The position numbers were made by a program, and so were the translations under genes. A stretch of DNA of 64,000 nt, from assembly GCA_034521575.1 (NCBI GenBank), contig JAXHMJ010000005.1, positions 1,550,001-1,614,000 on the forward strand. Direction: 5' to 3'. Every line of letters begins with the position of its first letter. Position 1 is the first letter of the stretch. Below the pieces are notes generated by a model. That model made no database searches, was not told the DNA's origin, and saw only the letters and a list, made by a program, of their open reading frames with translations. This stretch comes from a candidate division KSB1 bacterium. GTDB taxonomy: Bacteria; Zhuqueibacterota; Zhuqueibacteria; Residuimicrobiales; Krinioviventaceae. Below are positions 56,624-61,536 of this stretch, in pieces.

Positions 56624-57673
56624 TTAGACAAGGCCTTTTTTTGCCGCCAATTCTGCATTGAGTACAGACCCGCCTGCAGCGCCTCTTACCAGATTATTGG
56701 ACAGGGTAATATAGCGGATGGTATTTTTTTCAACTTCAAGGCGGCCGATTTTAGCAGCCATACCTTTTGCCCGTTCCGGCCAACCCAGTTCTATATCATA
56801 CCGGGGCTGCGGACGATCATACTCTTCAGTAAACACAACCGGGGGGTGAGGAGCTGTGGGAAGGTCTTTCAGAATATTTGGCGACTCGACGGATTGCATG
56901 GCAGCGGCAACTGCATCATGATCGACATCCTGCTCAACCTCTGCATGTACAGAAATCAGGTGCCCGATTATCGTTTGAACACGAACACAATGCGCATACA
57001 CCTCCCAGTCAACCGGTTTGATGCTGCCTTGAAAATCTCCGCAAATCTTGGTGCATTCAGCCCGCAGTTTGGGTTCTTCATTTTTAATATAGGGTATGAC
57101 ATTGGAAATAATATCCACAGCAGACAAGCCCGGATAGCCGGCGCCGGAAATAGCCTGATAACTCGCAACGATCAGACGTTTGATCCCGAACTGACGAATG
57201 GGCAAAAGAGACAGGGTCAGACCGGTTGTCGTACAGTTTGCGTTGGTGACAATAAATCCCTCTGTATTTTGATTTTTTACCAGATCCAAATGTTTATAAT
57301 TGAGTTCCGGAATGAGGATCGGCACATTCTCGTCCATCCGGTGTGCGCCGGCATTGGAAAATACCTTGAGACCTTTTTCGGCCGCCTCGGTTTCAATGTC
57401 GCCGGCCACATCTGAGGGCAATGCGGAAAAAACCACTTGAACGCCTTTGGATAACAATAAATCAATGTCAATCGGATCAAACAGCATATCTTCAAAAGAT
57501 TCCGGTATCCCGCCTTTTATCTGTTCTTTAACAGTAGCCAGCATCAAACCTTTTCTAGCTTCACTCGCACAAATAGCGGTCAGTTCAAAATAAGGATGAT
57601 CCACCAGCAAGCGTAAAAAATTCTGGCCGACTACACCGGTTGCACCCAAAACTGCACATTTAATTTTTTTCAT
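56624..57673 (-). CDS. asd: aspartate-semialdehyde dehydrogenase (archaeal/eukaryal-type)
   Basis: A 349-residue enzyme converting aspartyl-4-phosphate to aspartate-4-semialdehyde with NADPH, the branch-point step to lysine, threonine and methionine. Visible are the nucleotide-binding AVLGATGVVGQNFLRLL, the catalytic Cys in NANCTTTGL (C147), VASYQAISGAGYPGLSAVDI and the catalytic His region ERAKGMAAKIGRLE. This is the shorter-loop class found in archaea, yeast and several FCB bacteria. AGAGGATC precedes the ATG. Its 160-nt leader holds a Lys/Thr/Met-rich ORF and an intrinsic terminator, so transcription attenuation is likely. Confidence 0.96.
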   Translation of the reverse strand: MKKIKCAVLGATGVVGQNFLRLLVDHPYFELTAICASEARKGLMLATVKEQIKGGIPESFEDMLFDPIDIDLLLSKGVQVVFSALPSDVAGDIETEAAEKGLKVFSNAGAHRMDENVPILIPELNYKHLDLVKNQNTEGFIVTNANCTTTGLTLSLLPIRQFGIKRLIVASYQAISGAGYPGLSAVDIISNVIPYIKNEEPKLRAECTKICGDFQGSIKPVDWEVYAHCVRVQTIIGHLISVHAEVEQDVDHDAVAAAMQSVESPNILKDLPTAPHPPVVFTEEYDRPQPRYDIELGWPERAKGMAAKIGRLEVEKNTIRYITLSNNLVRGAAGGSVLNAELAAKKGLV

Positions 57674-57699: not shown

Positions 57700-57732
57700 A
57701 AAAAAAAAGCCTGCTTTTTAAAGCAGGCTTGG
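57700..57732 (-). terminator. intrinsic terminator (attenuator candidate) in the asd leader
   Basis: On the minus strand AAGCCTGCTTT and AAAGCAGGCTT form the stem, followed by a run of about eight T residues, 27 nt before the asd start. Its extended 5' arm CCAAGCCTG (57732-57724) is exactly complementary to CAGGCTTGG (57768-57760) in the last codons of the upstream leader ORF. The terminator and an antiterminator are therefore mutually exclusive. Confidence 0.85.
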
Positions 57733-57754
57733 TGAAAACGAATTATAGAAATGA

Positions 57755-57817
57755 CTAGTCCAAGCCTGGATATTTGCTTTTTTTAGTTTTCTTGTCTGTG
57801 CGCTTTGACATAGTCAT
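57755..57817 (-). CDS. Lys/Thr/Met-rich leader peptide upstream of asd
   Basis: A 20-codon ORF, MTMSKRTDKKTKKSKYPGLD. AAGGA lies 5 nt before this ATG; in-frame ATGs at 57820 and 57811 are alternatives. Six Lys, three Thr and two Met make up over half of the peptide, all end products of the pathway that asd serves. Its final codons overlap a sequence that can pair with the 5' arm of the downstream terminator. By analogy with thr and his leaders, ribosome stalling at the Lys/Thr cluster would favour the antiterminator. It could instead be a small structural protein; no homologue search was possible. Confidence 0.62.
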   Translation of the reverse strand: MTMSKRTDKKTKKSKYPGLD

Positions 57818-57833
57818 CATATCCTTGGTTCAG

Positions 57834-57869
57834 TTGAATTAATGTACACATTAATTCAATCAAAGTCAA
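57834..57869 (-). promoter_or_regulatory. promoter of the asd leader with overlapping palindrome
   Basis: On the minus strand TTGACT (57869-57864), a 17-bp spacer and TACATT (57846-57841) form a sigma-70-like promoter. Arms TTGAATTAATGT and ACATTAATTCAA, with a 2-bp centre (57834-57859), cover the spacer, the -10 box and the likely start point. A dyad in that position is typical of a repressor operator. The promoter follows the end of the GH2 gene, so asd is its own unit. Confidence 0.58.

Positions 57870-57916: not shown

Positions 57917-61536
<3,620 letters not shown>

Follow-up and report, generated by a model that had tools for sequence, protein, structure and literature searches.

A putative leader-peptide attenuator with lysine, threonine and methionine codons upstream of asd in an uncultured KSB1 bacterium

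Described attenuators and the asd leader

Ribosome-mediated attenuation is a textbook form of transcriptional control, and leaders that respond to two or three amino acids exist, as thrL and ilvL illustrate. The thr leader of E. coli (thrL, RF00506) combines Thr and Ile control codons with alternative hairpins and a terminator before the first gene. In enterobacteria, the single leader of ilvGMEDA (ilvL) senses Ile, Val, and Leu. RF00506 also precedes thrA in Shewanella (PMC2659441), and ilvGMEDA is listed among the attenuated operons (PMC1183508). Leader-peptide attenuation is likewise known in Actinobacteria (PMC1262725) and Firmicutes (PMC2965389, PMC5794164); these attenuators are also ribosome-mediated outside Proteobacteria but act on genes other than asd. 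In Actinobacteria, no conserved RNA structures were reported before the operons for threonine, lysine, or methionine (PMC1262725). PMC12925634 cites the result that ArgP, a lysine-responsive regulator, activates asd in E. coli.

Here, we describe a leader in front of asd in the genome under study (G000). Its sequence makes it very probable that the leader attenuates transcription by a ribosome-mediated mechanism, senses more than one aspartate-family amino acid, and controls asd. It resembles the thr leader in its control codons for aspartate-family products, its overlapping alternative hairpins, and its terminator, but the thr leader controls thrABC and has no cluster of Lys or Met codons, whereas the present leader would control asd. 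The ilvGMEDA leader is a precedent for multivalent attenuation, and the asd leader would likewise respond to several amino acids; however, ilvGMEDA belongs to another pathway and phylum, and its sensed amino acids come from one operon rather than from several branches downstream, as at asd. The 2:3 and 3:4 pairings, and possibly the 1:2 pairing too, are shared with the trp leader, which reads a single amino acid of a single branch, in contrast to the three that the asd leader would read. Like the lysine riboswitch, the asd leader would place the aspartate pathway under end-product control at the RNA level, but the riboswitch binds lysine directly and has no leader peptide, whereas the asd leader contains an ORF.

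Two other RNA elements of amino-acid metabolism were found in G000. The first is a trp attenuator before trpEGDCFB (contig C5, minus strand, about 590906-590700; L103:5690-5935), with the leader MNLVLNINNANFWWWWTFITRCATGK, four consecutive Trp codons (WWWW), hairpins, and a terminator; the identity of TrpE was confirmed. This classic element indicates that the lineage uses leader-peptide attenuation. The second is the only copy of the lysine riboswitch RF00168 in G000 (C5:351394-351533, minus strand). It precedes a gene cluster made up of an ArgE/DapE-like member, lysC of the lysine-sensitive type, and dapB. With a riboswitch at lysC-dapB and an attenuator at asd, lysine would be sensed at its own branch, and several end products together at the shared step. 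Among family genomes with a readable upstream region, thrA, encoding the bifunctional aspartokinase/homoserine dehydrogenase, has no such leader.

The riboswitch elsewhere in the genome, and a terminator/antiterminator pair that by itself would suit any class of attenuator, would accommodate a leader that binds a metabolite (riboswitch) or a protein (RNA-binding regulator), the short ORF being incidental. We consider this very unlikely. No Rfam family reached its gathering score at the asd leader of G000 or at eight related loci; RF00168 is absent there, Thr_leader RF00506 was not among the G000 asd-leader matches up to E 5, and the best sub-threshold match was Trp_leader (29.9 bits; cut-off 41). 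The T-box RF00230 gave no match in ten family genomes, the leader leaves scant room for an aptamer besides the ORF, and the conserved features are codon identity and position.

The original prediction had called an attenuator sensing several amino acids at this branch-point gene new for a non-proteobacterial genome. As far as we found, the asd target, the combined Lys, Thr, and Met input, and a lineage outside the well-studied phyla are new; leader peptides outside Proteobacteria are by themselves already known. Our search brought up neither an asd leader peptide nor a description of combined Lys, Thr, and Met control codons, with subscription journals, including older attenuation papers, mostly beyond its reach.

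Leader anatomy and competing helices

The window, that is, the whole 64,000-nucleotide stretch of DNA analysed, carries all parts of the leader on its minus strand, and coordinates without a contig name refer to it. A single asd gene (56624-57673) lies downstream of the leader in G000 and encodes an aspartate-semialdehyde dehydrogenase of 349 aa (TIGR00978 asd_EA, 385.7 bits; cut-off 301.2 bits). Motif matching located a -35 hexamer TTGACT (57864-57869) and, after a 17-nt spacer, a -10 hexamer TACATT (57841-57846); TTGAC(T/A) occurs at the same place in relatives of family f1. We infer that TTGACT-17-TACATT (57869-57841) is a sigma-70-like promoter with a transcript start near 57834, where about one equally good match is expected by chance in such a stretch. 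A perfect inverted repeat with 12-bp arms, TTGAATTAATGTGTACATTAATTCAA (57834-57859), overlaps the -10 region. No other perfect copy occurs in the genome, and the repeat, a possible operator, is not apparent in promoters of related genomes. Farther upstream of asd lies a long glycosidase-like ORF (57917-61178), beta-galactosidase-like by eye, which is split into overlapping frames (58518-61178 and 57917-58687) by a frameshift or a sequencing error.

Between promoter and asd, the reading frame and the leaders of relatives delimit the leader ORF MTMSKRTDKKTKKSKYPGLD with its stop codon (57755-57817), and a Shine-Dalgarno-like AAGGA (57822-57826) lies just upstream. The predicted 20-codon ORF with a ribosome-binding site was thus confirmed, its length being 21 or 18 codons if translation starts at 57820 or 57811. 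Snapshot folding and the codon position test, both described below, mark the KKTKK cluster (57779-57793) as the control codons. Pairing analysis placed arm 2, CAGGCTTGG (57760-57768), the 5' strand of the antiterminator, within the last codons of the ORF. Arm 3, CCAAGCCTG (57724-57732), serves both as the 3' strand of the antiterminator and as the 5' strand of the terminator. The two are exact complements over 9 bp, and the prediction that the complement of the ORF's end doubles as a terminator arm before asd held. The intrinsic terminator (57700-57730) was identified by folding and consists of arms 3:4, paired over 10 bp around a loop of 4 (57730-57707), and a T-run that reaches 57700. The minimum-energy fold allows a protector helix in which arm 1 (57802-57818) binds arm 2 together with the stop region; taken alone, this pairing in G000 is no better than chance (p 0.46).

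A-rich DNA readily yields short Lys-rich ORFs, and the terminator might accordingly be a constitutive one that insulates asd from upstream transcription, beside an ORF that is fortuitous or encodes a small, basic, stand-alone protein. The order promoter-ORF-terminator-asd, however, puts the terminator inside the transcript of asd itself, and what relatives conserve is the Lys/Thr/Met content and the 2:3 helix, not the peptide sequence; we regard an insulator as extremely unlikely.

Both structures called for by the attenuator reading were scored by folding in G000. Folding energies are -15.0 kcal/mol (z -4.6) for the terminator alone and -8.9 kcal/mol (z -2.3) for the hairpin of the antiterminator. 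In known attenuators, the weaker antiterminator helix wins only kinetically. The same would apply here, where the antiterminator could win only by forming before arm 4 is transcribed. The 2:3 duplex of leader end and terminator arm in G000 is stronger than 99.5% of dinucleotide shuffles, and in 9 of 10 leaders, including the odd one of G004, it beats shuffles at p<0.05 (Fisher 4e-10). The 1:2 protector helix stands out in L005 and L004, is of borderline strength in L020 and L006, and is not significant in G000 alone; over ten leaders the Fisher p is 9e-4. Across the leaders compared, arm 1 lies mostly at codons 2-8. The architecture may therefore be of the full trp/thr type, most relatives appearing to have the 1:2 helix too, with that of G000 not above chance.

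On the contig that carries asd, 2.39 Mb (of the 5.26 Mb of the genome) were scanned for a short ORF with a competing helix, a terminator, and a downstream long ORF. The asd leader ranked first by helix score among 69 candidates. A further scan, which looked for short ORFs enriched in given amino acids, recovered the asd leader and the trp leader.

For snapshot folding, the RNA was taken as transcribed up to the terminator loop and the ribosome was placed codon by codon. Across nine leaders, stalls in the Lys/Thr/Met region gave a 2:3 pairing of ~0.7-1.0, and stalls past the cluster gave 0; the exception is L007, where first-codon stalls gave 0.4-0.6. In G000, the antiterminator formed for stalls up to KKTKK and did not form after the next codons. 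Without a ribosome, the snapshot favours the antiterminator in G000 (0.75), as in most f1 leaders, so that untranslated leaders would be expected to read through. The g20 leaders prefer other pairings when ribosome-free, and the effect of an untranslated leader may therefore differ between lineages.

Leaders of related genomes and their control codons

Upstream sequences were collected through Asd matches in related genomes across the phylum, mostly draft assemblies. A scan of genome contigs yielded a single useful locus, L031, which is identical with L005. A terminator directly precedes asd in all 8 loci of family f1, and 6 of the 8 have a leader ORF whose end is complementary to the terminator arm. 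The f1 leaders besides that of G000 are MINLMKYKQTTYIKKTGNNSGLYIFLS (G008), MKSLVQIKTNKKTRGYSGLYYIIH (G002), (L)KTRLTTTRMNAKMHRCGLGKCCDCE (G009), (L)TATGLTMRMKTIINRRGLGKPYECE (G007), and MNEMRKTYKPLKKYLTKGLGNCTS (G001). Three genomes of one genus in another family of the same class (f9/g20) have the leaders MKIKSTTKTMKMTMMKTMTCTCGFWKGGL, MNLITTSKTTMCTTIITMTCNICFWRGGL, and MIKSIIKTTKTTMMTTTCKCRFRKGGL, each with its own terminator and arm 2 in the same anatomy as f1. Shine-Dalgarno motifs are weak in several relatives. Between genera of f1, both partners differ at four pairs of the 2:3 helix (A-T/G-C, T-A/C-G, G-C/T-A, and G-C/A-T), and relatives keep the Lys, Thr, and Met codons; compensatory changes and conserved Lys and Thr codons were what the original prediction had sought from an alignment. 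In f1 and g20, the leader peptides diverge strongly in sequence yet are alike in composition, as would follow from selection on the codons and not on the peptide. A peptide kept without the helix, or away from asd, which would have spoken for a stand-alone small protein, was not seen: codons and helix stay before asd as the peptide drifts.

Several loci depart from the common plan. In the g7 genomes (L004 and L006), a ribosome that has reached the stop codon would leave arm 2 uncovered, and termination there would have to depend on re-formation of the 1:2 helix. In G004 (L002), the terminator and the complementary arm are kept and the leader, MAMKSRFAFFSFSIRGQ, is Phe-rich, like pheA leaders; its sequence would be compatible with a change of the sensed amino acid or with a decayed leader, both of which are possible. 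In G006 (L008, G006:C514:1-155), about 100 nt with the leader ORF are missing relative to the congener G001, and promoter and terminator are kept; this deletion near a contig end is possibly an assembly error.

Most other members of the class and phylum have no terminator near asd; in several of them, the reason is an operon in which asd comes after lysC. The terminators found close to asd in f3 (L011 and L018) were not counted, as they lack a Lys/Thr/Met leader that stops before the terminator. Among 20 asd homologues outside the phylum (~40-46% identity), no clear counterpart of the leader was found; one of them, L211, has a terminator, and its arm 2 is not convincing. In the Asd tree, f1 and g20 stand apart with leaderless relatives between them, implying two origins of the element or repeated losses.

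Codon content was compared with dinucleotide-preserving shuffles of the same ORFs. Over whole leaders, enrichment is greatest for Thr, Lys, Cys, and Met. We defined the stall window as the codons at which a stalled ribosome leaves arm 2 free, which gives 130 codons in nine leaders. These comprise 38 Thr (14.9 expected), 29 Lys (18.4), and 15 Met (4.8). Lys/Met/Thr ranks first of the 1,140 amino-acid triples in the pooled leaders (z 9.8) and is also the top triple in f1 (z 5.9), in g20 (z 8.0), and with one leader per f1 genus (z 5.0). The predicted presence of Lys, Thr, and Met codons in the leader was supported, with Met, besides Lys and Thr, upheld by the relatives. The three make up 82 of the 130 codons inside the stall window vs 11 of 93 outside it (p 2e-15), where codon p-values are rough, as related leaders were treated as independent and independence is overstated, and where the outside codons are also constrained by arm 2.

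The Thr enrichment is the largest everywhere (z 7.4), and the leader of L021, rich in Thr and Ile and with a single Lys, resembles the thr leader of E. coli. Both observations would suit an attenuator that in effect senses threonine alone, as thrL does, with the Lys and Met codons hitch-hiking in an A-rich leader. Against this, Lys and Met are each enriched over shuffles in both groups: the observed Lys and Met counts were reached by 24 and 41 of 5000 shuffles in f1 and by 2 and 1 of 5000 in g20. The G000 leader, moreover, has 6 Lys vs 3 Thr codons. A single threonine input is unlikely on these counts. Ile, a derivative of Thr, ranks fourth in frequency among stall-window residues and is not enriched over shuffles.

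Proposed mechanism and its meaning

A promoter, a leader ORF, the mutually exclusive pairings 2:3 and 3:4 (with 1:2 probably in most relatives), and a terminator can all be read at the locus. In G000 and its relatives, at the level of sequence, a short ORF lies between promoter and gene, end-product control codons are placed so that a stall would free the antiterminator, and the antiterminator is mutually exclusive with the intrinsic terminator. In the multi-input attenuator that we favour, a shortage of lysyl-, threonyl-, or methionyl-tRNA would stall the ribosome in the first two thirds of the leader ORF. With arm 2 left free by the stalled ribosome, 2:3 would form ahead of the synthesis of arm 4, and the polymerase would enter asd. 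With Lys, Thr, and Met all plentiful, the ribosome would cover arm 2, 3:4 would form, and transcription would stop before asd. Alternatively, arm 1 might recapture arm 2 after passage of the ribosome and so lead to the terminator. Running short of just one of the three would be enough, which would make the element an OR gate for the end products derived from the branch point.

More tentatively, and with somewhat less than even confidence, we propose that an OR-gated Lys/Thr/Met sensor at the branch-point gene asd arose at least twice in one phylum (in f1 and in f9/g20). One cell would then split lysine-specific and common steps between two RNA mechanisms, a lysine riboswitch before lysC-dapB and an attenuator before asd, and the codon mix would drift by lineage, being Lys-heavy in G000, Thr-heavy in g20, and possibly Phe in G004.

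Attenuators are textbook sensors of a pathway's own product, and the asd element would read three end products. If this reading is true, translation integrates several metabolic signals at the enzyme just before the branch point, without a regulatory protein. The finding would also place leader-peptide attenuation in an uncultured bacterial lineage, where leaders with differing mixes of Lys, Thr, and Met would form a natural series on how codon content sets sensitivity.
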